33,865 nucleotides of DNA from a virus (IMGVR_UViG_3300023223_000247:1-33865), one strand, 5' to 3'. Numbered from the stretch's first letter, positions 5,950 to 31,836 are shown. Numbers and translations: made by a program. The notes: generated from the letters alone by a model not told the origin.

Positions 5950-8139
5950 TTAATTTGGGTCTTTGTCCTGAGCGCCTTGGACAATCTGTGCTTGCTCAAT
6001 GTAAGCTTCCGTATTGCCGGGGCCAACTATTGAATCAACGCCCATAGCTTCGCGGATGGTCTTGAGTGTGTTGGCTTCTTTATTCAGATTGTCAACAGCG
6101 TCATTAATCGCTTGCGCGTTCTGTTCCTGAATAGCCATGAGTTGATTAAATTGCTGGTCGCCTGCTTTCAATCCCAAGCCAGCCTCTTTCTCGGCAATCT
6201 TGAGGTCTTGCTCACGCGCCTTGAGTTGCAGTTCTTGTTGTTGTAATTGAATCTCGGCAGATTTAACTTGTAAGTCGTTCTGTGCCTTCTGCGCGTCCAA
6301 TTGATTGCGAGCGCCTTGGTTCTGAGCCTCTTGCAGTTTTGATTGAGCTAAGATTACTTCCGCGCTAGGCGGTTGTGGCTCTTGCGCCGCCTGCTCTGCT
6401 TGTGCTCTCTCTTCGTCTGTCATCTGTTCTGGTGGAATAGCGCCAACCTTCAACAGTTGCAGTCTCGCTCTCTCTGCTAGCTTGTCGGTTCCCGGTGAGT
6501 TCAAGTTGCTAAGAACAATATCTTGCCCTGTCTCCATGACGCCCGGAATAACTAACCCCATCTCCATTATCATAGCATTGGTTTCGCTTTGGCGACTACT
6601 GAACGAAGCTCCGGCCTTACAGGTCACATCATACCGGCCAGCCGATAAATCGTTAACAAGAACTTCCTCACCAGTTTGCTGGTCAATCATAATTTGATTA
6701 ATCTCTTTCATTTCGAAAGAACCATCTTCACCCATAATACGCATAGTCCGTTGAGTGTCGTAAACCTTGGGCAAAGCAGCGTTGATAACCGTGGCAGTTT
6801 CACAGACACCAACCTCAATCCCCTTCACATATTTGCTTACTACATTCCCGCCTTTTCTCTGAAGTTTCTCGATCGCTACACCAGACTGGAGACCGGGGTT
6901 GTCGCCCATGCTGGCCGCAAAGACACCTGCGCTCGCCCCCATCATGTTCTGCATACTTTCAGACATAACACGAAGTCCGGGGTTTATCTGCGCGCCACCT
7001 TGTTGTGTTGGTGGCGGAACTGTACCGTCTGCGTTGTATTCCTGTACAGGGTCAGCGTTTGTATTAAGAGTTCCTAAAGTCTTCTCATGCCCCACCATTT
7101 GTTTGCTGGTCATCCAATATTTAGCGCGGGGGGCTAGAGCGCCTTCTTCAAACTCTCTTGACAATGAGTAATTCAACAGCCGTTGAGGATCAATAAGCTT
7201 TAACACAGCGCCGCTATAGGTAGGCTTGTTCTCAATGACCTTGTAGTTACCATAAACAGGAATGATGGGAAGGTGACTAAATGGTGTTTCTTCTTCTTTT
7301 GCGAGCCATCCTTTACCGTCAAACTTGCGCATAAAGAAGATAGATTCTTTAACTGTTTTTCTATCGGCCTCAACCTCACCCAGAGTAGCGAGTTCGTCTT
7401 TAAGCTTTGTCCACGTCTCACCGTCTTCCCAGAACTCCCGCCCTAGACTTGTTTTAATAAGCACACGAGACGTTAGCTTTTGATAATACACATGACCGAT
7501 AATAACGTCGTCGGTTTTATCGAAGTAAGCGATTGATTCTGTATTGTCGTCAACACTTGACGGCATACGCCCGGGGAATAGTTCCTCAAACTCATCCTTA
7601 GGCATTGAATTGAGAAGAAAGCCGAACTTACGATTAGGACGTATCAGTCTATGAGTGCCACCGTCAACCCAAACTCGGTCATTCGCGTTCTCGATAGGCT
7701 CAATCAATATATCTGTATCAAAGCTAGAGTCTTCAATGAAGTCAGTCTTGACAAGCCATGCGTCAAAGCCAGCGGTTACTATGTTACGCCCCGACTCTGA
7801 GTAAATAGCTTGCGCACTTGATACAGTCTCGATGTTCCTAATCAGTCCATCACGAAGGATTGCCTCATCTTTCGACGCACCACTACCGGCAGGGGAAATT
7901 TTAATGTCAAAGTCTAATTCGTCTATCTCACCGCTTAACTGGTCAATAATGGGGGTGGTCTGGTCAAAGGTATAGCGAGGCTTGCCCCGGAACTGTGTGA
8001 CTATCAAAGGTTCCCATTGACCATCCTTCTTGGTGACGAACAAGTGAGCCTCTTTAGCTTGCTGGCGCTGGTCTTCTTCTGCTGATTGAAGGTTTTTAAG
8101 AAGGCGAGTGACCTCTGCATATCGTGTGAATTTAGTCAT
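5950..8139 (-). CDS. Portal protein, P22 gp1 family
   Basis: 729 residues, nearly the P22 portal length (725). The N-terminal two thirds contain the portal fold signatures (PIIDQLSGEIDELDFDI; GRNIVTAGFDAWLVKTDF; INPGLRVMSESMQNMMGASAGVFAASMG). The last ~200 residues are Gln-rich and coiled-coil, like the P22 barrel that reaches into the capsid. Twelve subunits form the packaging vertex and dock the large terminase, then gp4. The start ATG overlaps the terminase stop as TAATG. The next gene downstream is scaffold, as in P22. Confidence 0.9.
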   Translation of the reverse strand: MTKFTRYAEVTRLLKNLQSAEEDQRQQAKEAHLFVTKKDGQWEPLIVTQFRGKPRYTFDQTTPIIDQLSGEIDELDFDIKISPAGSGASKDEAILRDGLIRNIETVSSAQAIYSESGRNIVTAGFDAWLVKTDFIEDSSFDTDILIEPIENANDRVWVDGGTHRLIRPNRKFGFLLNSMPKDEFEELFPGRMPSSVDDNTESIAYFDKTDDVIIGHVYYQKLTSRVLIKTSLGREFWEDGETWTKLKDELATLGEVEADRKTVKESIFFMRKFDGKGWLAKEEETPFSHLPIIPVYGNYKVIENKPTYSGAVLKLIDPQRLLNYSLSREFEEGALAPRAKYWMTSKQMVGHEKTLGTLNTNADPVQEYNADGTVPPPTQQGGAQINPGLRVMSESMQNMMGASAGVFAASMGDNPGLQSGVAIEKLQRKGGNVVSKYVKGIEVGVCETATVINAALPKVYDTQRTMRIMGEDGSFEMKEINQIMIDQQTGEEVLVNDLSAGRYDVTCKAGASFSSRQSETNAMIMEMGLVIPGVMETGQDIVLSNLNSPGTDKLAERARLQLLKVGAIPPEQMTDEERAQAEQAAQEPQPPSAEVILAQSKLQEAQNQGARNQLDAQKAQNDLQVKSAEIQLQQQELQLKAREQDLKIAEKEAGLGLKAGDQQFNQLMAIQEQNAQAINDAVDNLNKEANTLKTIREAMGVDSIVGPGNTEAYIEQAQIVQGAQDKDPN

Positions 8140-9683
8140 TACCAGCCCTTATAATTGATCTTGAGAGGGCCTGAATGAGACGGCGGGGAATACATCGCCA
8201 TCATAACTGAATCCGCTTCATTGGGTGACTGAATGCCTAGCTTTTTCATTTCGTCTTTGCTCATGATTTGGATCAAGCCTCTAGGATTGTCCTTACTTGG
8301 TATTCTACACAATTGTGACCTTAATGCAACAATGTCGTCAATTCCGTCACTATCCAAACTTATCATGTCGTCGGGGTCAACGTACTTTCCACCCTCAACA
8401 CAGTCATATGTATTCTTAAATCTGCGTGCTAGCTCCATGTAATATTGAGCGCGGTTGTTCTTGAATGTGTCAGCGTAGGACATAGGAGTATCTGTGTCGT
8501 TATCGCCTGTCTCAGGCATGTAAAGCTCTAAGGCGTGGTCCTGACCAGAACCCGACAAGCTCCCTTTGAACATGTGATATTTGGTCTTAGTCCCTTTGAA
8601 TGCGTTCGACACCTGTCTTCGTAGCCCTGTCCCCATACCGTCGCCGTCCCATACAAACCAATCAACCCCGGCACGTGTGGCTAAACCTGTTGCCCAATCG
8701 CAACACTCGTCAACTTTACCTGTTTCCTTACAGTGAACTTGAGTGATGATTGAACCATGACGCGCAGCAAAGCCAGCAGCATCTCCGCCACCATCAAACG
8801 GATCATGAGCGCATATAACGGCCCCGGTGGGTTTGAATACACTCTCCAGTCTATCAAGCTTGTGTGCGTCTACAGCAGCGGTAAACCATTCCTGACGTAT
8901 GATTGTGTTCTCTACTTCGTCTAGGTACTCACCAAGCCATTTGTGCCGGTATTGAGCCTCAGACATGTTCTCTTTGTCATCAAGTCGCTCTTGTTCTAAA
9001 CCGGACGCGATAAACCATGACTTCGGCATATCGGTATAGTTCATTTGAACAACCATGATTGTATCGTCTTCATAGTATCCCGTTCTTGCGAGGTCCTTCT
9101 CGGCGCGAGCCAGCCATTTCTTTGCAATCGCCCCGTCTGTCGTGCCACGGTTCATTGTTACGATAATCTCAGGCATCTTGACGTTGCTGTCTTCAAGTAG
9201 GCTATCAAGGGCTTTAATGTCTGCCACGTCCTGACCGTCTAAGAGTTCCGCTGTGTCTGCCGCATTCAACCGCACAGAGGCCGTGAGAACCCGTAAAGTA
9301 TTGTCCGTTATGTCTTCACCCTCTTCTATCCATAAGCCGTCTACACCTGATAGCGTGGATTTAAGGGATGTAATGTTTCTATGAAGCCCCCGGTAGAAGC
9401 AGCGACCACCAGAGCCATGAGTGATTGAGGTCTTGGTTTCCTCAAACCCCTCAATCCCAAGACGGTTAATCTCATCCAACAATGTACGATGTACTGATTC
9501 TTCAATAGAGTTCTGGTTTTCACGAGCGCAGCACCAAAGCTCTCCGGTTGCCATCTTGGTTGCGACGTAATCCGCTATGCCTGTTGACTTGGTAGAGCCA
9601 CGGCCACCGACGATTATCTTTATCCGCTTCGGCTTGGTGAATATCGGATGGAGGTTCTTTACATAATCAATTTGTATGTTCAT
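8139..9683 (-). CDS. Terminase large subunit (packaging ATPase/nuclease)
   Basis: 514 residues. The ATPase half has a Walker A motif GGRGSTKST (residues 26-34) and Walker B GLWIEE with catalytic Glu (about 116-121). The C-terminal RNase-H-like nuclease half shows the acidic sites CAHDPFDGGGD, FVWDGDGMG and DGIDDIVAL. It translocates DNA into the procapsid through the portal and cuts concatemers, most likely headful style as in P22 relatives. Its small-subunit partner is not adjacent but about 3.2 kb upstream in the same direction. Confidence 0.93.
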   Translation of the reverse strand: MNIQIDYVKNLHPIFTKPKRIKIIVGGRGSTKSTGIADYVATKMATGELWCCARENQNSIEESVHRTLLDEINRLGIEGFEETKTSITHGSGGRCFYRGLHRNITSLKSTLSGVDGLWIEEGEDITDNTLRVLTASVRLNAADTAELLDGQDVADIKALDSLLEDSNVKMPEIIVTMNRGTTDGAIAKKWLARAEKDLARTGYYEDDTIMVVQMNYTDMPKSWFIASGLEQERLDDKENMSEAQYRHKWLGEYLDEVENTIIRQEWFTAAVDAHKLDRLESVFKPTGAVICAHDPFDGGGDAAGFAARHGSIITQVHCKETGKVDECCDWATGLATRAGVDWFVWDGDGMGTGLRRQVSNAFKGTKTKYHMFKGSLSGSGQDHALELYMPETGDNDTDTPMSYADTFKNNRAQYYMELARRFKNTYDCVEGGKYVDPDDMISLDSDGIDDIVALRSQLCRIPSKDNPRGLIQIMSKDEMKKLGIQSPNEADSVMMAMYSPPSHSGPLKINYKGW

Positions 9684-11306: not shown

Positions 11307-11486
11307 TCATCCATTATATTTCCGATACTCTATCTTTCCACCCGGCGCAGGACACAAGAAGTCGTCTCGCGTTCGCCATACATTAGATAACCATATCAAT
11401 TCACCCTTTTGCGTCCGAACTGGTAGCCATGCAAAGCACAAGACTCCATGCCAGCAAGGTAGCGTATATGTGCGACTGTCAGTCAT
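11307..11486 (-). CDS. 59-residue Trp/Cys-containing hypothetical protein
   Basis: The frame opens with ATG at 11484-11486 behind GGGAGAGAG and closes 6 nt before the HTH gene, filling the gap there exactly. It contains five Trp and three Cys (PCWHGVLCFAWLP near the N-terminus, DDFLCPAPGG near the C-terminus). The regular Trp/Arg pattern (LIWLSNVWRTRDDF) suggests a compact small domain. No family recognised. Confidence 0.65.
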   Translation of the reverse strand: MTDSRTYTLPCWHGVLCFAWLPVRTQKGELIWLSNVWRTRDDFLCPAPGGKIEYRKYNG

Positions 11487-11510
11487 AATGCTCTCTCCCT
11501 TTCGTGGGTG

Positions 11511-11810
11511 TTAGTTAGATTTAACTCGAAGCGCGTTCATCTTCTTAGCCGCAGCCTCAAAAAACTCTGTGCCAGAAAGCACCTTTACAAGCTCATCTGC
11601 GACAGCTTTATGTGCAGCATCAGCAACGGCCCTACCAAGTTCACCATCTATCTGACTATTCGCATGGGCTTTAGCTTCTTTCAAAGGGTCAAAATCGTAC
11701 AAGGCGCGGCGAACCGATTCTATAGCCCACTCATGCGGCCCCCTATAACCAATGCGCTTATCAACTTCTTTCTCTATCATCTTGCCGATGAATTTATTTA
11801 TGCCGAACAT
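11511..11810 (-). CDS. Hypothetical helical protein, 99 residues
   Basis: Starts MFGINKFIGKMIEKEVDKRIG behind AAAGGAGAGAAG. It is Ala- and charge-rich and almost wholly helical, with amphipathic helices through residues 50-95 (AVADAAHKAVADELVKVL). There is no transmembrane segment or catalytic motif. It follows the larger 12275-11835 gene with a short gap and its own ribosome site. Function unknown. Confidence 0.65.
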   Translation of the reverse strand: MFGINKFIGKMIEKEVDKRIGYRGPHEWAIESVRRALYDFDPLKEAKAHANSQIDGELGRAVADAAHKAVADELVKVLSGTEFFEAAAKKMNALRVKSN

Positions 11811-11834
11811 CTTCTCTCTCCTTTGTTGGTGGTG

Positions 11835-12275
11835 TTAGGCTAGTCTCGCCTTAATGTCACTATAAAGCGGGACAAACCACGCCCTGTCTCTGTCTTCAAT
11901 AACATCATCCATGTAGTAAATATTGATATGACCGAGGCCCGCAGACGTGTCCACCTCAACGCCGCTCGGAACAATGATACTTATCGAACTTGCGCCGTAT
12001 AAAGGAACGGTAGAGCATCCTTTTTTGGCAGTATAGATGTCTGGCATGTTATAGTTATAGACATGGCTTATATCGCCGCCATCCTCTAAATGCTTCTTAA
12101 GCCACTTTGCATAAAGCTTTGCTCCTTTTTCTTTCAAGTACGGGAACATATCTTGCTTTGCAGCCTCCATTTGCCCACGGTGTTTAATTTCGTAAGCCTC
12201 TCTTTCCGCGTCCCATCTTATCTGCGATTGCGTCTCTTCGTGCTCTGCTGCCGCTATCTTGCTTGATACACTCAT
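11835..12275 (-). CDS. Hypothetical phage protein, 146 residues
   Basis: Of two in-frame ATGs six bases apart, the second (12273-12275) is better spaced from AGGGAGA. The N-terminal 70 residues form a charged coiled coil (KIAAAEHEETQSQIRWDAEREAYEIKHRGQ, in part), and the C-terminal half is beta-rich with GHINIYYMDDVIEDRDRAWFVPLY. No recognised family. It lies in the leftward operon between the two terminase genes. Confidence 0.65.
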   Translation of the reverse strand: MSVSSKIAAAEHEETQSQIRWDAEREAYEIKHRGQMEAAKQDMFPYLKEKGAKLYAKWLKKHLEDGGDISHVYNYNMPDIYTAKKGCSTVPLYGASSISIIVPSGVEVDTSAGLGHINIYYMDDVIEDRDRAWFVPLYSDIKARLA

Positions 12276-12298
12276 CCTCATTCTCCCTGTTGTTGATG

Positions 12299-15908: not shown

Positions 15909-16438
15909 TTTAATATCCGATCAATTGTGGAACGGCTTACACCATAGTCTATAGCCAAGTCGGCAGGGTGCTTACCTTTGTTGTGTAAGTGTATGATATG
16001 GTCTTGATGCTCCCAAGCATCAGAAGGGGGTTTACCAGACTTGCCAGCGCTATTTTCAGCACGTACCTTGCTGTTAGCCTTTACGATAGCTGCACGAGCG
16101 CGAGCATGTTTTTTGTCTGCTACCTCGTGGCATGGATAAAATGCTTTGTCTTTAATATCATAGATACCCTCACCCCCAAGCTTACCTATCTCGACAAACG
16201 CCTTGTTGATGTTGCCTAGCCCGATGATAGCCAACTCCCACACATGCAGCCTGTCGCCCTTCCTAATGGTTAGGGGGTGGAACACCTCATCGAGAGTGTC
16301 GTATATGGGTGTATCTTTTGGGTTGCTATGTTCGACCACGCCCGACTTGATAATCTCTACCCGCTGCTCGTTAGGCGTAAGGCTTCCAGCACGTCTTTGA
16401 ATATATCCAGATAATTGTGTCATAAAACTATTTTCCAT
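15905..16438 (-). CDS. DNA-binding protein with C-terminal resolvase-type HTH
   Basis: The first gene behind the leftward promoter. I take ATG 16436-16438 (MENSFMTQLSGYIQ) as start because the promoter's -10 box lies inside the upstream part of the longer frame and TTAGGGA precedes this ATG. The 177-residue protein has a central helical region and ends in HNKGKHPADLAIDYGVSRSTIDRILK (in part), a helix-turn-helix of the resolvase/HTH_7 type. The catalytic Ser-recombinase domain is absent. It could regulate its own promoter. Role inferred. Confidence 0.65.
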   Translation of the reverse strand: MENSFMTQLSGYIQRRAGSLTPNEQRVEIIKSGVVEHSNPKDTPIYDTLDEVFHPLTIRKGDRLHVWELAIIGLGNINKAFVEIGKLGGEGIYDIKDKAFYPCHEVADKKHARARAAIVKANSKVRAENSAGKSGKPPSDAWEHQDHIIHLHNKGKHPADLAIDYGVSRSTIDRILK

Positions 16439-16463
16439 AATCCCTAAGTTTTGAATTGACATC

Positions 16464-16492
16464 ACTATATTGGAATGGTAGAAGTTAGTCAA
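16464..16492 (-). promoter_or_regulatory. Strong predicted leftward promoter
   Basis: Minus strand TTGACT (16487-16492), 17-nt spacer, TATAGT (16464-16469): 5/6 matches in each box with ideal spacing. It should drive the leftward accessory operon starting at 16438. On the plus strand a TATGAT (16495-16500) faces right, with only a poor TTGGAA -35 at a 19-nt distance; the rightward promoter is therefore less certain. Region 16439-16552 holds no gene. Confidence 0.75.
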
Positions 16493-16513
16493 GATATGAT
16501 TTGAAATATTAAA

Positions 16514-16535
16514 ACGCCCATCAATCACGATGGCG
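16514..16535 (+). repeat. ACGCC leader element 1 (hairpin)
   Basis: AAAACGCCC opens a hairpin: CGCC and ATC pair with GAT and GGCG around a 6-nt loop, with one C bulge. It ends just before AAGGAGAGAG and the start of the first rightward gene. Confidence 0.7.
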
Positions 16536-16552
16536 TAACAAGGAGAGAGAAT

Positions 16553-16795
16553 ATGACTGATAATAAAAATGAACTGCCAACAGTAAGGACATCATTGGGG
16601 CTTCGCGATGCGCTATTTGACGAGCTTGATGCTTTGCGTGACGGCACCAGTAACCCACAGAAGTCACAAGCGACAGCCAAGCTTGCGGTGCAGATTATCA
16701 ATTCTGTTAAGATGGAAATTGATTACAATCTTGCGGAAACACAAACAGCCATTGCCATTGAAAACACAAGCAATATTCAGCTAGGCTCATGTTGA
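16553..16795 (+). CDS. First gene of rightward accessory operon; small phage protein
   Basis: 80 residues behind a leader hairpin and AAGGAGAGAG. It is helical and charged, with TSLGLRDALFDELDALRDGTSNPQKSQATAKLAVQIINSVKMEIDY (in part). This layout of a DALRDG turn followed by an A-x-x-A-x-L-A-x-x-I helix is found in small phage proteins next to early regulators. Their function is unknown. The stop overlaps the next start. Confidence 0.7.
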   Translation: MTDNKNELPTVRTSLGLRDALFDELDALRDGTSNPQKSQATAKLAVQIINSVKMEIDYNLAETQTAIAIENTSNIQLGSC

Positions 16796-17196
16796 AAATA
16801 ACCACTACCATAAAAGCGCACCTTTGCGTATCAAGAGCGTTGAGCGTTCTGTCAGCGCCGTTTACTGCTAGAAAATGCTCGTTGTGCAGTGGGGTGGTTA
16901 GGGATTTACCTGTTCCTAAAAATTCGCGGCGTTGGATAGAGGCTGCTGGGATTCTCGTTTTAGAGGCATCTATTTGTGGGTGTTGCTACTCTAAGTTCGC
17001 CCATTGGTTCACCAGAGTTAAGTCGCGGGGTTCTAATAGCTACACAAAATCATTTGAGGAGTACCAAGCGCAGGGAGATTCCTGTGCTGATATAAAGGAT
17101 GCTCGACACATAGATATAGTTGAATATATCGCGCATCTGGTTGGCTTGAGAAATAAACCTAAGTGGCTATTAAGCGGTCATGGAACACGACCATGA
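16789..17196 (+). CDS. Cys-rich, probably zinc-binding small protein
   Basis: 135 residues. Two Cys pairs, CSLC (residues 31-34) and CGCC (around 64-67), suggest one zinc site; a basic C-terminal half (NKPKWLLSGHGTRP at the end) could bind nucleic acid. The ATG overlaps the upstream stop by 7 nt and the stop overlaps the next ATG by 4, so it is translationally coupled. It is not preceded by the ACGCC leader. No family recognised. Confidence 0.6.
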   Translation: MLKITTTIKAHLCVSRALSVLSAPFTARKCSLCSGVVRDLPVPKNSRRWIEAAGILVLEASICGCCYSKFAHWFTRVKSRGSNSYTKSFEEYQAQGDSCADIKDARHIDIVEYIAHLVGLRNKPKWLLSGHGTRP

Positions 17197-17330
17197 GGAA
17201 GCCCAAGCGCCCCCCCAAAAAGGGAGGAAAAAAGAAAGGCGAACGCAAAACCTTTCTCGGCTTCAGTCTTGGGCATATTGGGATGGCCGTTGTGGCTGGA
17301 AGGGCTTTGAGAAAAGGACGGAAGAAATGA
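17193..17330 (+). CDS. 45-residue polybasic peptide with hydrophobic segment
   Basis: The frame starts in ATGA overlap with the previous gene and ends in ATGA overlap with the next, which strongly supports it over a longer frame through the same bases. The first 19 residues contain 12 Lys/Arg and three Pro; a hydrophobic stretch (FLGFSLGHIGMAVVAGRAL) follows and the end is RKGRKK. It could bind RNA/DNA or a membrane. No family recognised. Confidence 0.6.
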   Translation: MRKPKRPPKKGGKKKGERKTFLGFSLGHIGMAVVAGRALRKGRKK

Positions 17331-17560
17331 CCGATATTTGTAAATGGCATCTTGAGTTCTCGTTTAAAGAAAAAGAACGAGTTGTTGAGTTTCTTAGGAT
17401 ATTAATGGATCAGGATATTGATTTTCCTTTTTCGTACCAAACAGTATTTGACGAAACAGTTGAAAGGCATGTGGTGATGATCGATGACATGTCTTGGGCT
17501 GGCAACCTAACCACAGCCGCAAAAATATTAGAGGGTGTGGATTTTAAAGAAGATGAATAA
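17327..17560 (+). CDS. Hypothetical protein, 77 residues
   Basis: Starts MTDICKWHLEFSFKEKERVVEF with an ATG overlapping the previous stop (ATGA) and GGACGGAAGAA upstream. A longer frame from 17180 exists but would run through two other genes. Alpha/beta with an acidic C-terminus (FKEDE). No recognised family. The next gene is separated by a gap containing leader element 2. Confidence 0.65.
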   Translation: MTDICKWHLEFSFKEKERVVEFLRILMDQDIDFPFSYQTVFDETVERHVVMIDDMSWAGNLTTAAKILEGVDFKEDE

Positions 17561-17567
17561 ACTAAAC

Positions 17568-17580
17568 AAACGCCCAAGGA
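17568..17580 (+). repeat. ACGCC leader element 2 (short form)
   Basis: AAACGCCCAAGGAATTACAG immediately before the ATG at 17588. Here the element has no real stem; CGCCC is fused to the ribosome site AAGGA. Confidence 0.65.
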
Positions 17581-17587
17581 ATTACAG

Positions 17588-18067
17588 ATGACTACTTACT
17601 ATGCATCAGACTGGACAGGCATGATGGACGAAGACGAAGCAGTGTTCTGGTTCCAGTGGGATATTGACGGTGATGTCCCAACGCCCTACGAAGCCAATAA
17701 AATATCTATGGCGAATGATTGGATGTTTGCTGGTGATTATAGGGAGTCATGGGGCGCTAAGTTTTCCGCGATTAAAGCTGTGATAAAGGGCGATGCCGAA
17801 ATAGACTTCTCTTTTGGGTGGCTAGAAGAAACCGAGAACCTACCCGATTGGATGTATTCAGCAGACCGCAAAATAGACAGGTTTTTTATTAGGGCGCTGT
17901 GTCTGCTTTTGCTGATTATTGGTAGAGATGGTTCGCGCTCTGGCATGGACTGTTCTTTTCATTGGGGCTACCAGCCAAGTTATGCAGGGTGGGATGCTTG
18001 GTTTATAGATTTTGATTTGAAAAATTTACGATACGATATTTACACAGACGGTGAATGGAATATGTAA
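17588..18067 (+). CDS. Hypothetical Trp/Asp-rich protein, 159 residues
   Basis: The product has 11 Trp and many Asp/Glu, with YASDWTGMMDEDEAVFWFQWD at the start, a hydrophobic stretch (RALCLLLLIIG) around residue 103-113, and a C-terminal aromatic domain. The hydrophobic stretch is too short and charged at the edges to be sure of a membrane span. No family recognised. It stands between leader elements 2 and 3, as a single-gene cassette. Confidence 0.6.
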   Translation: MTTYYASDWTGMMDEDEAVFWFQWDIDGDVPTPYEANKISMANDWMFAGDYRESWGAKFSAIKAVIKGDAEIDFSFGWLEETENLPDWMYSADRKIDRFFIRALCLLLLIIGRDGSRSGMDCSFHWGYQPSYAGWDAWFIDFDLKNLRYDIYTDGEWNM

Positions 18068-18084
18068 CGCAACAATAGTTACAC

Positions 18085-18103
18085 AAACGCCCGATTGTCG
18101 GGC
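18085..18103 (+). repeat. ACGCC leader element 3 (perfect hairpin)
   Basis: AAACGCCC with GCCCGA pairing perfectly to TCGGGC over a 3-nt loop (18089-18103), then AAGGAGAG. This is the most stable member of the family. Confidence 0.75.
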
Positions 18104-18116
18104 AAGGAGAGATATA

Positions 18117-18482
18117 ATGGTAGAGACTAACCCGGACTTCCCCGCACAGCGCCCTAATGCTTGGGGCCGCGCAAATGATTATCAGATCAAAGCGGCGAAA
18201 CTCAACGCATTGTCGGAGATCGAGATTAAAATGCGTGGAGTCGATGACTGGTATGTTCATCAGTCTGTTGAAGTTAAAAAAGGTGGATTCCTTAAAAGTG
18301 CTTACGGTAACGGCGCAACGCCAGAGGAGGCTATCAATAGCCACTGGAAACATCTGGTTGAAGACCTGCCATCTGATGAATATTTGGTGACCAACGCCTA
18401 CGATGACGGCAACCGAAAAGCTGTTCGGTGGAATGGATTTATGTGGGAAGAAGTCAGAGAAAAAACAACGGCAACCGAATAG
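18117..18482 (+). CDS. Hypothetical phage protein, 121 residues
   Basis: Start MVETNPDFPAQ is set by the AAGGAGAG and leader hairpin just upstream; a longer frame would read through the hairpin. The fold looks alpha/beta with a TPEEAINSHWKHLVE segment typical of short phage proteins that keep a domain with conserved A-I-x-x-x-W, and a final RWNGFMWEEV strand. Function unknown. Confidence 0.65.
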   Translation: MVETNPDFPAQRPNAWGRANDYQIKAAKLNALSEIEIKMRGVDDWYVHQSVEVKKGGFLKSAYGNGATPEEAINSHWKHLVEDLPSDEYLVTNAYDDGNRKAVRWNGFMWEEVREKTTATE

Positions 18483-18489
18483 TTGCACA

Positions 18490-18503
18490 AACGCCCGAAA
18501 GGC
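18490..18503 (+). repeat. ACGCC leader element 4 (mini hairpin)
   Basis: AAACGCCCGAAAGGC: GCC pairs with GGC over a CGAAA loop. It is followed by ACACAAC and the start ATG at 18511, so the ribosome site here is weak; AAAGG of the hairpin loop may serve. Confidence 0.6.
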
Positions 18504-18510
18504 ACACAAC

Positions 18511-18783
18511 ATGGGACAACACACATCACATAAGGGCCTAAGCCCGATAGGTAAGCTCTTGTCGCATTGGATGATTGAAGAAGAGTTGAGTCGCCGTGGC
18601 TTTGCCGCGTTGATCGGGTGCAGTGATCCTTTCGTTTCTAAGGTTTTTAAAGGTGACTGCGAACCCCCCGTGTCTTGGGTTGGCAAGCTAACCGGTGAAG
18701 CAAAAAATGCAGTGCTAGATCATTTGATCGCTAAATACGAAAACAAGATTGAAGAGTTGCGCGGCTTTGATAACCGCGATTAA
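18511..18783 (+). CDS. Helix-turn-helix regulator (XRE/Cro-like)
   Basis: 90 residues. Residues 13-48 read as an HTH domain: LLSHWMIEEELSRRGFAALIGCSDPFVSKVFKG (in part), with recognition helix DPFVSKVFKGDCEPP like that of many XRE proteins. The N-terminal region is short and there is no dimerization domain of the CI type, so Cro-like function is more likely than repressor. ATG at 18511 is preferred over an upstream one because of the leader. Targets unknown. Confidence 0.7.
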   Translation: MGQHTSHKGLSPIGKLLSHWMIEEELSRRGFAALIGCSDPFVSKVFKGDCEPPVSWVGKLTGEAKNAVLDHLIAKYENKIEELRGFDNRD

Positions 18784-18794
18784 AGATAACTTTT

Positions 18795-18808
18795 AAACGC
18801 CCAAGGAA
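18795..18808 (+). repeat. ACGCC leader element 5 (short form)
   Basis: AAACGCCCAAGGAATTAAGAAG directly before the ATG at 18817 (first 14 bases marked). Identical over its first 17 bases to element 2, so the two gene starts share a recent origin or strong constraint. Confidence 0.7.
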
Positions 18809-18816
18809 TTAAGAAG

Positions 18817-19032
18817 ATGAATGATAAAACGCTGGACCTACTAAAAATCACCCTCATCAAAGCGATGAACGAGTCTGTGACCCATCTAGAGCACTTGGGG
18901 CGTATAAGAGATATTGCGCTTGAGGCCGACTTTGTTCCTGATGCTACCAAAGAGCTATTTAAAGTGATGGACCCTGTGGCCCTTCAATTCCAAATTGAAG
19001 AGGCTTTAGGTGACATCGAAGAAAACAATTAA
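18817..19032 (+). CDS. Hypothetical helical protein, 71 residues
   Basis: All-helical, acidic protein (LLKITLIKAMNESVTHLEHLGRIRDIALEADF in part). No membrane segment or cysteine. It begins 22 nt after the core of leader element 5 and its stop TAA is the start of element 6, showing that the leader abuts gene ends. Function unknown. Confidence 0.65.
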   Translation: MNDKTLDLLKITLIKAMNESVTHLEHLGRIRDIALEADFVPDATKELFKVMDPVALQFQIEEALGDIEENN

Positions 19033-19048
19033 ACGCCCACTTACGGGC
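19031..19048 (+). repeat. ACGCC leader element 6 (hairpin)
   Basis: AAACGCCC: GCCC pairs with GGGC over ACTTAC (19035-19048), then AACAAGGAGAG. The bases AACGCCCACTTACGGGCA are identical to element 7, about 135 nt downstream. Confidence 0.75.
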
Positions 19049-19060
19049 ATAACAAGGAGA

Positions 19061-19153
19061 GTGATTACTTGGATTGTGGGCTGTATTAAGCAATACCCCT
19101 CTGAAACTGTCGCGGCTATTACGGTGAAGTTTGAGCAACTACAATCCTACTAA
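19061..19153 (+). CDS. Possible 30-residue peptide gene
   Basis: Behind leader element 6 and AAGGAGA there is a GTG-initiated frame of 30 codons ending at TAA 19151-19153. Spacing to this GTG is too short, and a second in-frame GTG at 19076 is also possible, so the start is unsure. The peptide would begin with a hydrophobic segment (VITWIVGCIKQYP). It fills the interval between two nearly identical leaders. Confidence 0.4.
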   Translation: MITWIVGCIKQYPSETVAAITVKFEQLQSY

Positions 19154-19167
19154 TCGCTTTTCACAAC

Positions 19168-19185
19168 TAACGCCCACTTACGGGC
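19168..19185 (+). repeat. ACGCC leader element 7 (hairpin)
   Basis: TAACGCCCACTTACGGGC: GCCC and GGGC pair over ACTTAC (19172-19185), then AAGCAGGAGAAAC before ATG 19202. It is a near-copy of element 6. Confidence 0.75.
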
Positions 19186-19201
19186 AAGCAGGAGAAACAA
19201 G

Positions 19202-19414
19202 ATGAAGATGTCGATCATAGACGGTGTGCTAACGGTTACCCCAGACACAGAAACCGAGGAGCTTGAGGTGATGCGCGTGTATAAGCATCACGTACGCGGA
19301 ATAAAGCTCTTAGATGCAATTCAAGGCTTGTGCGAAGCGTACCCAGAAGATGCAGAATTGGGTGAGCTATATCAAACGGCTGGCGCTTACGTTGACCGTC
19401 CATTTTCGAGTTAA
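19202..19414 (+). CDS. Hypothetical protein, 70 residues
   Basis: Starts MKMSIIDGVLTVTPDTETEELEVM with a beta-hairpin followed by helical HHVRGIKLLDAIQGLCEAYPEDAEL (in part). The protein is acidic. Single-gene cassette between leader elements 7 and 8. No family recognised. Confidence 0.65.
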   Translation: MKMSIIDGVLTVTPDTETEELEVMRVYKHHVRGIKLLDAIQGLCEAYPEDAELGELYQTAGAYVDRPFSS

Positions 19415-19419
19415 CAAAC

Positions 19420-19433
19420 AGACGCCCAAGGAA
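19420..19433 (+). repeat. ACGCC leader element 8 (short form)
   Basis: AGACGCCCAAGGAAGGGGAGAGAG before ATG 19445. No stem; it resembles elements 2 and 5 with an enriched purine ribosome site. Confidence 0.6.
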
Positions 19434-19444
19434 GGGGAGAGAGT

Positions 19445-19690
19445 ATGACTATTGAAGTGGGACAAGAATTAAAGGTGTTTCTCAAGGGCGAAAGCCCGTG
19501 GATCGTTGTAACAGAGGTTATCAGTGATACCGTTGTGAAAGGAACCATCAACAATGACTTGATGTTCCCAGACATGCACGGCTATCAGTGTGGCGATGAA
19601 GTTACCGTAAATTGGCATCCTGTGCGATCATGGGTGCCAGTGGAGAAACAAGAAGCCAACAACGATAGATCGGTTGGTGAGGTTAACTAA
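19445..19690 (+). CDS. Hypothetical beta-rich protein, 81 residues
   Basis: A small beta-barrel pattern (VGQELKVFLKGESPWIVVTEV, then VVKGTINNDL, CGDEVTVNWHPV), with hydrophobic positions alternating, suggests an SH3-like or OB-like fold that may bind nucleic acid or protein. The C-terminal tail is polar. It stands between leader 8 and an 86-nt non-coding segment. Function unknown. Confidence 0.65.
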   Translation: MTIEVGQELKVFLKGESPWIVVTEVISDTVVKGTINNDLMFPDMHGYQCGDEVTVNWHPVRSWVPVEKQEANNDRSVGEVN

Positions 19691-19699
19691 ATTGACAAG

Positions 19700-19751
19700 C
19701 GCGTATGGGTACGCGGTATGTGTGGCGCTGGGCCGTCTTGTCGAACCCAGC
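19700..19751 (+). other. Two adjacent hairpins in non-coding segment
   Basis: CGCGTA-TGGG-TACGCG forms a perfect 6-bp hairpin (19700-19715). GCTGGG and CCCAGC (19727-19732, 19746-19751) form a second, 6-bp stem with a 13-nt loop. A TTGACA (19692-19697) stands just before, but no good -10 follows. Neither hairpin is followed by a long U-run (ATCTTTA). It could be a regulatory or processing structure. Confidence 0.5.
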
Positions 19752-19763
19752 ATCTTTATAAAC

Positions 19764-19777
19764 AAACGCCCGAGGAA
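19764..19777 (+). repeat. ACGCC leader element 9 (short form)
   Basis: AAACGCCCGAGGA, immediately before ATGATGATGG. The ribosome site GAGGA is fused to the CGCCC core. The third ATG (19783) has the best spacing. Confidence 0.65.
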
Positions 19778-19782
19778 TGATG

Positions 19783-20028
19783 ATGGACCCTGAAGAAGCA
19801 GAACAATTGAAGAAAGCGGCTATTCAAATACAAAAGGATAGCCACAAAATATCTAGCATAGAGCGGTTCCTTTCATCTATGGGTGCTGAGGCGGAAATTT
19901 CTTTGGGCGGCATTGGAAGTGTGACTATCCCCAAGCCGATTGAAATTGAAGTTTTGAGCCTTTTAATGAAAGACTTTGAAAAGTCAGTTGAGCGGCAAAA
20001 AGGCAAGATTAAAGATTTAATAAACTAA
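19783..20028 (+). CDS. Hypothetical helical protein, 81 residues
   Basis: Three ATGs in a row start the frame; the third (19783) is best placed relative to GAGGA. The protein is charged and helical with a Gly-rich turn (AEISLGGIGSVTIPKPIEIE) between two helical halves, the C-terminal one a likely coiled coil (LLMKDFEKSVERQKGKIKD). No family recognised. Its stop is followed directly by leader element 10. Confidence 0.65.
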   Translation: MDPEEAEQLKKAAIQIQKDSHKISSIERFLSSMGAEAEISLGGIGSVTIPKPIEIEVLSLLMKDFEKSVERQKGKIKDLIN

Positions 20029-20040
20029 CGCCTGAAAGGA
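20026..20040 (+). repeat. ACGCC leader element 10 (mini hairpin)
   Basis: TAACGCCTGAAAGGAATTGAG before ATG 20047 (first 15 bases marked). CCT pairs with AGG over GAA; the TAA is the stop of the gene before it. Confidence 0.6.
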
Positions 20041-20046
20041 ATTGAG

Positions 20047-20151
20047 ATGGAATGGTTTAATGAGAACATAGGACTGCTCGCGTTTATTGCTGTTGTGATT
20101 GTTGCCGTTGTGCTGGTGGCTATGGTTGCCCTTGGTGCGTGGCTTTTCTAA
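20047..20151 (+). CDS. 34-residue single-span membrane peptide
   Basis: The peptide has a short polar start (MEWFNENIG) and a hydrophobic helix of about 24 residues rich in Val and Ala (LLAFIAVVIVAVVLVAM and on to GAWLF). It has leader element 10 and AAAGGA upstream. Last gene of the rightward accessory operon; its stop codon is 3 bp from the stop of the convergent gene. Small holin-like or regulatory roles are possible, unproven. Confidence 0.6.
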   Translation: MEWFNENIGLLAFIAVVIVAVVLVAMVALGAWLF

Positions 20152-21830: not shown

Positions 21831-22066
21831 TGTTTTTTCTCCATCGCTTCAAAGCTCATTATTCCATCTAGAAGGCTGAAAAGGTCATCTTGGCTGAGTT
21901 GCGTCGTGCGGAACAGGTCTATTCTAATCTCACCTTGTTCACGCGAGACAACAGCTATGCGGCCCTCTTCGTCGTAGTTGTCAGGCAAATGAACGTGTTT
22001 TGTTGGCGCTGGCTCGACCTTTGCAGGGCCGTATATATCGTTTAACATGTCCTCTTCGTAAGTCAT
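21827..22066 (-). CDS. Hypothetical acidic protein, 79 residues
   Basis: Acidic, with a disordered-looking N-terminal half (MLNDIYGPAKVEPAPTK) and a C-terminal strand-helix pattern (EIRIDLFRTTQLSQDDLFSLLDGIMSF). It is ATGA-coupled to the Rad52-like gene, so it may be a partner such as a modulator or SSB-like tail-binding protein, though nothing proves this. AGGAGAGATAAG precedes the start. Confidence 0.6.
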   Translation of the reverse strand: MTYEEDMLNDIYGPAKVEPAPTKHVHLPDNYDEEGRIAVVSREQGEIRIDLFRTTQLSQDDLFSLLDGIMSFEAMEKKQ

Positions 22067-22077
22067 CTTATCTCTCC

Positions 22078-22374
22078 TTACCCGAAATCTGCGGGGTGTA
22101 AATTGTATTCAACATCTTCAATCATTTGCTTCATGTATTGAGTGTCAAACAAGCTTTTATAGTTTTCGTATTCGCCGTATTCATCGCCCTCTTGATCAAT
22201 CACGAACAGCGCGGGATTAGCAAAGCCTACAACAACTTGCTCACCCTCTACCTTGTCATGTATTAATTCCAGAGTTCCTTCGGCTTGTGACCATAACGGC
22301 TCCAGCTCGTTAACCTCTACAGTTACATCTACAGTGACACTGTGCTCGCCGTGGTTGTCATTAAACTGTTTCAT
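22078..22374 (-). CDS. First gene of recombination operon, 98 residues
   Basis: Start MKQFNDNHGEHSV at ATG 22372-22374 behind AAAGGAGAACGG; a longer frame runs into the promoter. The protein is beta-rich in its first half (VTVDVTVEVNELEPLWSQAEGTLEL) and acidic. No recognised family. It is directly controlled by the leftward member of the divergent promoter pair. It may be an early phage protein without known function. Confidence 0.65.
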   Translation of the reverse strand: MKQFNDNHGEHSVTVDVTVEVNELEPLWSQAEGTLELIHDKVEGEQVVVGFANPALFVIDQEGDEYGEYENYKSLFDTQYMKQMIEDVEYNLHPADFG

Positions 22375-24533: not shown

Positions 24534-25475
24534 GTGGCAATAGAGGTCATAGATGCAGTTTTCAAGAAGAAGATAAAGCCTTCTGGGGCTAAGCTTGTGG
24601 CTATCTGCTTGGCAAATTATGCGAGCAAGAACGACGATGGAAGTTACCATTCATGGCCCTCGTATAATACAATTTGCGCAGTGACAAGTCTATCCAAAGC
24701 ATCTGTTTCAAAGCACTTAAAGACATTACAAGAACAAGGCATCATTAAGATGTCCAAGCGGCACGAATCGTCAACAGGATACAAGAAGCCAAACACATAC
24801 GAGTGGAACCTATCGGAATTGTCCAAAGTTCAACAGGTAGACTTAGGCCAAAGTTCATCTGGGAAACGCCAAAGTTCATCTGGGAAACGCCAAAGTTCAA
24901 CAGGTAGACCCGATACGTTACCTAAACCGTTATCTGATCCGTTAGATTCCCCCTATAGTCCCCCAGGGGACGATCCTGAAAAGGGTTTTAATGAATTTTG
25001 GAAAGTGTTTGATTACGAACTAGGTGAAGACTTGGCGCTGAGCGTATGGACGAAGAAAGGGCTTAGCAAAAAAGTAGATGAGATTATGGAGGGTGCGCAG
25101 GCCTACGTCAAATCACGCGATCCTGATAACAAAGCATTTTGGAAACAAGCGCCCGGCTGGTTACGTGATGGACGATGGAAAGACAAAGTGGAACCGGCAA
25201 AGGATGTTGTTTACAAATTAAACGGGCCTACTCGGTTTTGGTTTTCATACCCTCGCATTGATGATTACGAGAGAGCACAGAAGGTCCACGATGAAATCAC
25301 AGTTGACAATACAGAAGAGGATTTAAAGGCTGCATACAAATTACTGATGTGGTTGCGGACAGACAAGAACGACGATATATGCACCATGCTTTACGATCTG
25401 CCAAACCATATCGACAAGGGACGAGAGTTCGCCATTAAGGGCGTTAGCATGTTTATGAAAGGGAATAAGCGATGA
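24534..25475 (+). CDS. Replication initiator / replisome organizer (lambda O-like by layout)
   Basis: The GTG at 24534 is preferred: AAAGGA lies six bases upstream and the N-terminus VAIEVIDAVFKKKIKPSGAKLVAICLA is the usual start of this type of protein. The 313-residue product has a winged-helix N-terminal domain (residues 15-90, with WPSYNTICAVTSLSKASVSKHLKTLQEQGIIK in part). A low-complexity linker comes from repeated DNA (RQSSSGK twice), and a C-terminal domain with GFNEFWKVFD, WLRDGRWKDK and a final helical part should recruit host or phage helicase. Origin iterons lie inside the gene. It is ATGA-coupled to the next gene. Confidence 0.8.
   Translation: MAIEVIDAVFKKKIKPSGAKLVAICLANYASKNDDGSYHSWPSYNTICAVTSLSKASVSKHLKTLQEQGIIKMSKRHESSTGYKKPNTYEWNLSELSKVQQVDLGQSSSGKRQSSSGKRQSSTGRPDTLPKPLSDPLDSPYSPPGDDPEKGFNEFWKVFDYELGEDLALSVWTKKGLSKKVDEIMEGAQAYVKSRDPDNKAFWKQAPGWLRDGRWKDKVEPAKDVVYKLNGPTRFWFSYPRIDDYERAQKVHDEITVDNTEEDLKAAYKLLMWLRTDKNDDICTMLYDLPNHIDKGREFAIKGVSMFMKGNKR
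24823..24909 (+). repeat. Origin iterons inside the initiator gene
   Basis: Four copies of CCAAAGTTCA(A/T)C(A/T)GG start at 24823, 24848, 24869 and 24890 (spacing 25, 21, 21). The outer two end GTAGAC and the inner two GAAAC. As in lambda-type origins, the initiator presumably binds these repeats in its own coding sequence. Confidence 0.8.
24916..24944 (+). repeat. CGTTA direct repeats beside the iterons
   Basis: CGTTA occurs at 24916, 24928 and 24940, exactly 12 bp apart, in a moderately AT-rich stretch following the iterons. It may be a second binding or unwinding element of the origin. Confidence 0.55.
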
Positions 25476-26267: not shown

Positions 26268-26286
26268 AAACGCCTCTGTATGGGGC
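26268..26286 (+). repeat. ACGCC leader element 11 (hairpin)
   Basis: AAACGCCTC: GCCTC and GGGGC pair over TGTAT with one G-T pair (26272-26286), then TATGAGGAGAGAG before ATG 26303. It is the only member outside the 16.5-20.1 kb operon. Confidence 0.65.
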
Positions 26287-26302
26287 TATGAGGAGAGAGA
26301 AG

Positions 26303-29514: not shown

Positions 29515-31836
29515 TCAAACGGTAGCGAACTGTCTGAAAAAATTGCTATCAAGATTGTTTGTAAGATTCAGCGGAGTTGTTGTAAATCCTGACATGGCAA
29601 ACGTCTGAATTGGAACTGTAAAGCTACGTCCAGCGTCCGTTAAATCCACACCCGCAAAAGTCTGTCTAGTATTGTCATCAGGGATAAACACGCCACGTTG
29701 AAAGAATATTGTTACTGTGGAATCTATAACCTCATCAAGACTTAAAAGGATTGTGCTTGTATTAACACCAACCTGAGCGTCAGTTACTACTAGAGGATTG
29801 CCGGATGATTGCTCAGCTTCAAACCCTGTAATGGTGCCGGTTCCTGTTTTGGACATATCAACGTCGTTTCCGTCAATATCCTTAAACCCTACCACGATTT
29901 GATTAGAGTTAATCAGGATAGATGAAGCCAATGGACCCTCTGCGGATACGAGACTAAAGCCAGCATGAAACAGATATTGCTGAGCAAACCGCTCTGCGTT
30001 ACGTTGATTGCTAGCTTCATTAGGGTGCACATCATCAGCAATGTTGATCGAATCATAAGTAGCTCCACCGTACTCTGCCAGAGTGTAGAAATCAATCTCT
30101 TGGGTTTGCTGCAATCCTGCTAATGTAATGCGATCAGCCACGCTCAAACCCGCCGCTTGGCTCATTTGATATGTTGGACACCTTAAAAGTCTGGTCGTTG
30201 CATTTAAGTCACCACCAGTTCTGTCAATCATCTGGGCCAGCCAGATAGGGAATTTTGTATTAACATACGTGTCGAAATAAGACGACGGAGAAGCGTTTAA
30301 AATCTCATCCTGTCCATCATCAACCAGATAGACATTTGGACCTGTTTTACTGAAAGCGTGATCCGCTGAAAACGCTACAGACTGACTCCATGTGTTTTCC
30401 TGTAATCGGTTAACCGCGGTTGTTTCGTCTGGCGTTCTTATATCCAATGGAAGCCCGCTAGAACACGCGTTCATAAAGCCTACATAGAGGTCAGTGTCTT
30501 CTTGAAGAATGTTAGCCATTCTGCGAGCGCCGGACCCTGTATAGGTAGACGTCCAGCCTATTTTCATATTGTCTGTAAAGCCAGCAAAGCTTAGGCCTGA
30601 GAAACAAGCACTAACAAAGACATTTTGAGGGTCAGAGCCGCTGTCTGTGTTTAAGAATAGTTGATCAATGATTGACTGTCCCCAGAACGCCCATTGAATG
30701 CCCACAGCGAAATCTTCGTTAGGCTCAAACGCTACTGTAGAACCGCCATCTGTTGAATATTGCATGCGGTACCTATTGGCAACCCATGAGTTTCCTGAGC
30801 TTGGACGGTTGGCAGGAATGTCTAAATCAACAAACCTTTTATCGCCATCAATGCCAGTCATTTCAGTCCAGCCTTTAATCTCCTCATTATCACCGGGGGA
30901 AGGGCTGGTTCCTGTCTCAATAACGCGACAATGAACAGTTGGGAGGGACACAGGATCAACGAAAACCTCACGCCTTACGTCTCCGATTAAATTGTTCTCA
31001 ACAACAGGGGTTACAGACAGGTCGCCATCAAACACAGGGGCCACGTCTAAGATTCCATAGTGTGCGACTTCTGCCGCGAGAGCCGTATTAATCATTTCAT
31101 CAGAAAGATAGCCGTTCCAAATAGTCATGCTTGCCAAATTGAAAGCCCCCACAGGGAAATCATTCGCCGGTAGCCCATTAGCATTAAGGTTGACGCCGCC
31201 AAGAAGAATAACAGTAGGGTCATTCTGCGCGTTGCTATCAGTTAGGGCGAGTTCCAATCCGTTAGCGTCTAGGTTCTCATTGAAGCTAGCAAAGTCATTA
31301 CGGTCCATTTGGATACGATAGGCAATGGCAGTGTAATTACTCGTATCAATAATATTGGCACTGACAATCAAAGTATTGTCCGCGTATCTCATTGTCTGCT
31401 TTCTTGGATTCATCCCGTCAATGCTGCGAGTATAATCCATTTGAAGGTTGCCTTCAGGGGGAAACGTCCCTTGTCCGTTATGTGACAGGAAAGTAGAGTT
31501 TTCAGCTTCGTCAGTAATTTTCACAACAGCAAGAACAGTAATTGCTTGATTACCAGAACCATAATCAAACAAGGTTAAATCGTCAATGTTGACAATAGTA
31601 TCACCGCTCGTAAACTCCATAACATCAAAGCCGTTCACATCACCAGCAATGCGCGGGGGAATGCCCACACCTACTTTTCGCACTTTAATATCTCGCGACG
31701 TATCGCCTAGAATATTGGTTAGGATAACATCACCAACATTAGTCGCTGATTCATTGTAGTTCTCCGCCGTGACTTCGTAAGCAGCCGCAACAGAGTTCTC
31801 ACTAACGTTTCTTGCCCTTTGTCCTGATCTAATCAT
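29515..31836 (-). CDS. Tailspike with SGNH/sialate-esterase-type domain
   Basis: 773 residues. The N-terminal third (about 60-270) looks like a concanavalin/LamG-type beta-sandwich (GFDVMEFTSGDTIVNIDDL...AITVLAVVKI...). A hydrolase part follows: WGQSIID with Ser388 as the block I nucleophile (GQS, as in sialate O-acetylesterases) and ADDVHPN with Asp601 and His604 as block V (DxxH). The C-terminal 150 residues are beta-rich. A tail protein of this kind would remove O-acetyl groups from capsule or O-antigen. The usual P22 endorhamnosidase beta-helix is absent. Lies directly after the head-binding tail protein gene. Confidence 0.75.
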   Translation of the reverse strand: MIRSGQRARNVSENSVAAAYEVTAENYNESATNVGDVILTNILGDTSRDIKVRKVGVGIPPRIAGDVNGFDVMEFTSGDTIVNIDDLTLFDYGSGNQAITVLAVVKITDEAENSTFLSHNGQGTFPPEGNLQMDYTRSIDGMNPRKQTMRYADNTLIVSANIIDTSNYTAIAYRIQMDRNDFASFNENLDANGLELALTDSNAQNDPTVILLGGVNLNANGLPANDFPVGAFNLASMTIWNGYLSDEMINTALAAEVAHYGILDVAPVFDGDLSVTPVVENNLIGDVRREVFVDPVSLPTVHCRVIETGTSPSPGDNEEIKGWTEMTGIDGDKRFVDLDIPANRPSSGNSWVANRYRMQYSTDGGSTVAFEPNEDFAVGIQWAFWGQSIIDQLFLNTDSGSDPQNVFVSACFSGLSFAGFTDNMKIGWTSTYTGSGARRMANILQEDTDLYVGFMNACSSGLPLDIRTPDETTAVNRLQENTWSQSVAFSADHAFSKTGPNVYLVDDGQDEILNASPSSYFDTYVNTKFPIWLAQMIDRTGGDLNATTRLLRCPTYQMSQAAGLSVADRITLAGLQQTQEIDFYTLAEYGGATYDSINIADDVHPNEASNQRNAERFAQQYLFHAGFSLVSAEGPLASSILINSNQIVVGFKDIDGNDVDMSKTGTGTITGFEAEQSSGNPLVVTDAQVGVNTSTILLSLDEVIDSTVTIFFQRGVFIPDDNTRQTFAGVDLTDAGRSFTVPIQTFAMSGFTTTPLNLTNNLDSNFFRQFATV

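Follow-up and report, generated by a model that had tools for sequence, protein, structure and literature searches.

A metagenomic virus genome from IMG/VR (IMGVR_UViG_3300023223_000247, here G000; the whole stretch of 33,865 bases is referred to as the window) contains a rightward accessory operon in which a short leader, built around ACGCC, is repeated before nearly every gene that does not overlap its predecessor. The copies are specific in strand and position, the leader recurs in four phages, and homology between these phages breaks at ACGCCC. Judged from sequence, there is roughly an even chance that the element is an RNA-level 5′ leader of each cistron, which would act mainly in translation initiation and would also serve as a junction for gene exchange.

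Leader copies in the accessory operon

ACGCC was present in eight of the nine gaps between non-overlapping genes of the operon (16424-20151). Shuffling each intergenic gap separately gave an expectation of 0.43, and none of 20,000 rounds reached the observed count; the overlapping genes at 16789, 17163 and 17327 carry no leader copy. Over both strands of the window, the longer motif WAACGCCY occurred 14 times, as compared with 4.0 ± 2.1 in dinucleotide shuffles (0 of 100 reached 14), and ten of the 14 sites are leaders, namely nine operon copies and one at 26268. An earlier sequence-only reading had placed ten operon copies of this motif, ahead of nearly every independent gene. The gap test bears this out, and the coordinates were right to within 1-2 bases (Table 1); nine copies match the motif exactly, and copy 8 (19420, AGACGCCC) has one mismatch. 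The copies do generally precede genes, but no convincing gene follows copy 6: the only open reading frame (ORF) there is a 30-codon one with a GTG start, one base past GGAG, and the sequence as far as copy 7 folds more strongly than any other part of the operon. Also confirmed were the identities claimed for copies 6 and 7 (AACGCCCACTTACGGGCA, 18 nt) and for copies 2 and 5 (AAACGCCCAAGGAATTA, 17 nt), as well as the claim that the leader is not the general style of this genome: it is absent from the rightward operon at 22.5-26.2 kb up to the copy at 26268. A single copy resembling copy 11 was found at L087:7230 (AAACGCCCCTCTATGGGGCTAGGAG).

Table 1. Leader copies and associated features of the window
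Feature	Position	Strand	Remarks
Leader copy 1, hairpin form	16512..16545	+	5′ untranslated region of first gene, ATG 16553
Leader copy 2, compact form (AAACGCCCAAGGAA)	17568..17581	+	ATG 17588
Leader copy 3, hairpin GCCCGA-TTG-TCGGGC	18085..18111	+	ATG 18117; 33 nt 91% identical to G008:2914-2945
Leader copy 4, mini-hairpin GCC-CGAAA-GGC	18489..18503	+	ATG 18511
Leader copy 5, compact form	18795..18808	+	ATG 18817
Leader copy 6, hairpin GCCC-ACTTAC-GGGC	19031..19061	+	Ahead of structured RNA, not a clear gene
Leader copy 7, hairpin same as copy 6	19168..19194	+	ATG 19202
Leader copy 8 (AGACGCCCAAGGAAGGGGAG), one mismatch to motif	19420..19439	+	ATG 19445
Leader copy 9, compact form	19764..19776	+	Start 19777 or later in-frame ATG
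Leader copy 10, compact form	20026..20041	+	Overlaps stop of preceding gene; ATG 20047
Leader copy 11, hairpin GCCUC-UGUAU-GGGGC	26268..26297	+	Outside array; ATG 26303
Divergent regulator, resolvase/DNA-invertase-like, C-terminal helix-turn-helix	15905..16423	-	Catalytic Ser/Asp/Arg positions apparently replaced
Operon control region (promoter/operator, start of 5′ untranslated region)	16424..16511	+	Kept in four phages up to ACGCCC (multiple alignment)
Putative structured non-coding RNA	19054..19165	+	Between copies 6 and 7; GGAG of copy 6 in terminal stem

Anatomy and folding of the leader

For the anatomy of the element, 24 leader copies from the window and the three other phages described below were compared. 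ACGCC is invariant in all 24 and the sixth base is C in 21, while the 15 nt on the 5′ side are 49% A, 30% T, 14% C and 7% G. The consensus is accordingly an A/U-rich flank followed by AACGCCC, 5′ of the Shine–Dalgarno (SD) sequence, with ACAAACG, ACTAACG and TTAAACG as recurring subtypes. Most copies begin 0-20 nt 3′ of the preceding stop and extend into AAGGA or GGAG. The ACGCCC core is some 10-40 nt from the start codon.

Of the fold classes that had been proposed, the hairpins of copies 1, 3, 6, 7 and 11 (predicted at -7.6 to -10.4 kcal/mol) and the 3-bp mini-hairpin of copy 4 were recovered, and copies 2, 5 and 9 gave no fold. In about 10 of 22 gene leaders the sequence on the 5′ side of the SD forms a GC-rich stem of 4 pairs or more; stems measure 4-8 bp and their loops vary. 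When shuffling was confined to the sequence 3′ of ACGCCC, the mean folding z-score over all 22 gene leaders was -0.70, which is significant in sum. The hairpins are optional, and for this reason the covariation that had been looked to as a check on them was only modest. A small test of inner pairs points to a hairpin: Watson–Crick extension of the stem was present in 7 of 15 AAC leaders, 20 of 40 other leaders and 5 of 21 non-leaders.

Two further places on the minus strand of the window call the leader to mind. Small leftward genes at 11307-12281 have TAACACCCACGAAAGGGAG, TAACACCACCAACAAAGGAG and TTAACATCAACAACAGGGAG ahead of them, which recall a G-to-A version of it, and at 22063-22105 ACACCCCGCAGATTTCGGGTAAGGAGAGATAAG, a related leader with a CCCG/CGGG hairpin on the opposite strand, stands ahead of the leftward gene that starts at 22066.

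Recurrence of the leader in other phages

The leader was also found in three metagenomic phages, in each case together with a control region made up of a divergent resolvase-like regulator and a promoter/operator. G008 (48 kb) was reached by scanning for a pattern and has copies ahead of six genes; two further scans added G061, with two copies in 35 kb, and G069, with five in 37 kb. Of 11 contigs containing TTTGAAATAWNNARACGCCC, only these three were retained; the other eight had no control region and appeared chance- or coding-like. Significant DNA matches of G008 to the window comprise the leaders and one recombination gene, and G061 and G069 share 39 nt at 97% identity and then diverge immediately. 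None of 27 cassette proteins is common to any two phages, and the first genes past the homology break are unrelated, G061 having a SpoU-type methylase of which no family member occurs in the others. Homologous leaders precede non-homologous genes in all four phages, which substantiates the sequence-only proposal of a standard 5′ leader carried by unrelated genes.

AACGCCC stands near 7 of 16 starts in the window and near 8 of 19 in the G008 and G069 arrays. A search of related phages had been proposed, and in those related by virion or recombination genes the picture was different: across 87 loci (80 reached by terminase and 7 by recombination-gene homology), AACGCCC was near 3 of 104 starts, the base rate of permutations of the same letters (3.1%). 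Since relatives by virion genes show no enrichment, the leader is not a virion-lineage trait and travels with the regulatory/accessory module. CCCACGA, which is enriched near starts in these relatives, traced to one orthologous gene and was set aside as not being the leader.

Wider searches were made with the leader and with two of the putative RNAs described below, that of the window among them, none of which had a convincing counterpart among 50,697 annotated phages. Contigs with the pattern AACGCCC-n-GGGC-n-AAGGAGAG number 27 in IMG/VR and belong to phages with a GC content of 43-68%. An ORF follows directly in 22 of 23 distinct matches, in unrelated phages, as compared with 66 of 106 when AAC is dropped from the pattern (p = 0.001), a form which has much background. 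In 84,980 bacterial genomes the strict pattern occurred 13 times, a number near the estimated chance level, and mostly outside a leader context. Several other genomes repeat a GC hairpin of their own before the SD (L146, L147, L110, L097, L253 and L198), and hairpin-before-SD leaders are therefore a wider, partly convergent phage habit. In five contigs (L116, L117, L139, L164 and L173), ACAGCGCCCCACTGGGCACAAGGAGAGCTG lies directly before the SD of different genes.

The break in homology at ACGCCC in four phages could also reflect a pure recombination joint, in which the leader is kept by short-homology copying and functions only as an ordinary SD region does. This would suit the mostly orphan character of the array proteins, and the window codes for RusA, a NinB-like mediator and one protein of phage recombination families. 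Neutral homology should, however, decay evenly, whereas ACGCC is invariant beside freely varying sequence. Together with a hairpin tendency above that of shuffles and the occurrence of similar AACGCCC-hairpin-SD leaders, one each, in unrelated phages, this makes a joint of that kind distinctly unlikely.

Control region and divergent regulator

The control regions of the four phages align over about 75 nt (TTTGAAATATTAAAACGCCC in the shared module), and homology ends at ACGCCC in the first copy. In G061 a TTGACT-17-TATAAC promoter was seen by eye. As the first copy lies downstream of this conserved promoter region, in the expected 5′ untranslated region, the RNA transcript is the most likely level at which the element acts. 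A promoter ahead of each gene was considered and rejected: sigma-70- or phage-promoter-like sites numbered 7, against 6.1 ± 2.6 in shuffles, and an SD 0-20 nt after the motif leaves no room for one.

A divergent gene of one family lies to the left of the array in all four phages, 16-36% identical to that of the window (36% in G061). The window protein matched Pfam HTH_7 with an E value of 7e-5, slightly under the cut-off, and a profile of the four homologues matched Gin invertase lengthwise with an E value of 0.0017, at the limit of detection; in the alignment neither the catalytic serine nor the LDRLGR motif is preserved. No homologue was found in annotated phages, and a protein scan of viral contigs found none either, though G061 (36%) was reached via DNA patterns. 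Besides the window gene, members of the family are at L265:9665-10204, L276:6183-6737 and L245:780-1328, all on the minus strand and in the position of a repressor.

The sequence-only reading had also considered antisense termination; in that case hairpin copies, followed by GTTT tails on the opposite strand, would stop leftward transcription into the operon. Copies 1, 3, 6 and 7 do score as terminator-like on the minus strand, where the AAAC of the 5′ flank becomes GUUU. This suits the hairpin copies only; the six sites overall are not above chance (3.8 ± 1.9 in shuffles), the T-runs are short, and a stem able to terminate is missing from the compact copies, among them most copies in G069. 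The suggestion is regarded as highly improbable.

Putative structured RNAs between leader copies

The segment between copies 6 and 7 (19054-19165) was predicted to form a long imperfect stem with a minimum free energy of -38.8 kcal/mol and a z-score of -4.71 (0 of 200 shuffles), the lowest of 130 operon windows. In G061 the second copy adjoins a tRNA-like fold (L258:9442-9527, z -3.24) which scores as tRNA-Sec with 27.9 bits and an E value of 0.0036, below the gathering score of 47; it lies 3′ of the SpoU-type RNA methylase gene and is followed by a GCCC-ACTA-GGGC element. In G069 the copy at 7963 stands ahead of a structured stretch without an ORF (L276:7960-8160, z -2.58), closed by the copy at 8167. 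Neither the window operon nor the G069 array gave an Rfam match above the gathering score.

Three of the four arrays, then, apparently bracket a putative structured RNA gene between two copies, which weakens a purely translational reading and keeps RNA processing open. The element would in that case be a cut or protection site that frees cistrons and non-coding RNAs and leaves a hairpin-protected 5′ end, and the closeness of copies behind stops would fit. Compact copies have no hairpin, however, no RNase III or tRNA-end signature was recognised, and no RNase gene was identified among the cassettes tested, so that processing seems unlikely, if worth entertaining.

Proposed role of the leader

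Returning to the translational leader, which we favour, the early accessory operon would be under the control of the divergent resolvase-like regulator and each copy would be a "start-associated" leader. It would be made up of a single strand rich in A/U and nearly devoid of G, the invariant ACGCC(C), a short GC hairpin in some copies, and AAGGA(G), such that each non-overlapping cistron would receive a standard, context-independent initiation site: an unstructured landing pad, then a small insulating hairpin, then the SD. The hairpin standby-site model has the same general scheme of unstructured upstream region, short hairpin and SD (PMC3936740); it describes initiation in general biophysical terms rather than any repeated natural element, and leaves the conservation of ACGCCC unexplained. 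Because every cistron begins with the same 15-35 nt, we infer that the leader may double as a joint for gene exchange between phages.

Several observations count against this reading. About half of the copies have no hairpin, the conserved core has no complementarity to the anti-SD, and predicted SD accessibility is barely above that of neighbouring genes (0.57 versus 0.47). Window copy 6 and the G069 copy at 7963, with no clear ORF, and the G061 copy at 30737, which precedes the tRNA-like fold, further indicate that the element has a role beyond that of a translation signal.

A more tentative and less probable extension is a portable system of cistron punctuation. One short RNA element would form the 5′ border of each cassette, coding or non-coding, under a catalytically dead serine-recombinase-like repressor; an inserted gene or small RNA would work at once via insulated initiation or processing, and the element would supply homology for swapping anti-host gene cassettes among phages whose virion genes are unrelated. 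Small early genes, which phages keep in variable blocks, are a main reservoir of unknown anti-host functions, and the point at which homology stops, at a shared leader in four otherwise different phages, shows where accessory genes join. The leader is a DNA handle for finding more such arrays, small genes and RNAs, and would be a natural, testable insulated initiation module.

Comparison with known systems

The sequence-only statement that no described system has such an element was too strong, as the start-associated sequence (SAS) and extended start-associated sequence (ESAS) of cluster K mycobacteriophages are of the same kind, though not the same element. SAS occurs in 11-19 copies per genome before the starts of non-structural genes, nearly always in one orientation, and is attached to genes of different families; a role in translation has been proposed and is unproven (PMC3203893; survey PMC12699233). 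Its 13-bp consensus (GGGATAGGAGCCC) includes the SD and is separated from the start by 3-7 nt, and ESAS, upstream of it, consists of imperfect 17-bp inverted repeats with a 4-13 bp spacer, judged by the authors not to be RNA hairpins (PMC3203893). The present leader is like SAS in its many copies, single orientation, non-structural genes and attachment to unrelated genes in related phages. It differs in having another sequence, with a core that is 5′ of the SD and farther from the start, and, unlike ESAS, it has short arms and an RNA hairpin present in only some copies; the host group is different from that of both. SAS/ESAS is the nearest described kind and follows the same logic, and the leader is not filed as SAS because it departs from it in sequence, in structure and in where it lies relative to the SD.

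Control by T4 RegB and RegA likewise involves a signal shared by the initiation regions of many early genes. The RegB consensus GG*AGRAYARAA lies in the SD of early genes, so that its signal is within and after the SD, with neither ACGCCC nor a hairpin requirement, which RegA lacks likewise (PMC3014915). The leader could by analogy be the site of a phage or host regulator, either a RegA-/RegB-like translational shut-off or a DNA operator, coordinating all cistrons. It does stand ahead of many early genes as RegB sites do, and several hairpin copies read GGAGAGA followed by A-rich sequence. Yet RegB needs just GGAG and A-rich 3′ sequence, compact copies have no GGAG, and no RegA- or RegB-like match was seen among the cassette proteins scanned; a DNA operator would not be expected to keep to a single orientation or to lose its symmetry in compact copies. 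We regard a regulator site as quite improbable.

The boxB of lambda nut has a GCCC/GGGC-type stem in early RNA, as do the present hairpins. It has a fixed pentaloop, an accompanying boxA and one or two copies per genome, whereas loops of the leader vary freely and no boxA was seen.

Genome setting and probable host

The leftward virion genes of the window (portal, major head protein, head closure and terminase) are P22-like, and its replication and recombination genes, at 20-26 kb, include an O-like replication initiator, NinB and RusA. Proteins of the operon had almost no family matches, those of the array being mostly orphans. The nearest annotated phages, Pseudoalteromonas phage H6/1 and Vibrio phages, are only 40% identical in the portal, and the host is therefore probably a marine gammaproteobacterium. 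Tandem 21-bp repeats (CAAAGTTCATCTGGGAAACGC) lie within the replication initiator gene at 24850-24900 and are perhaps an origin of the lambda O type.

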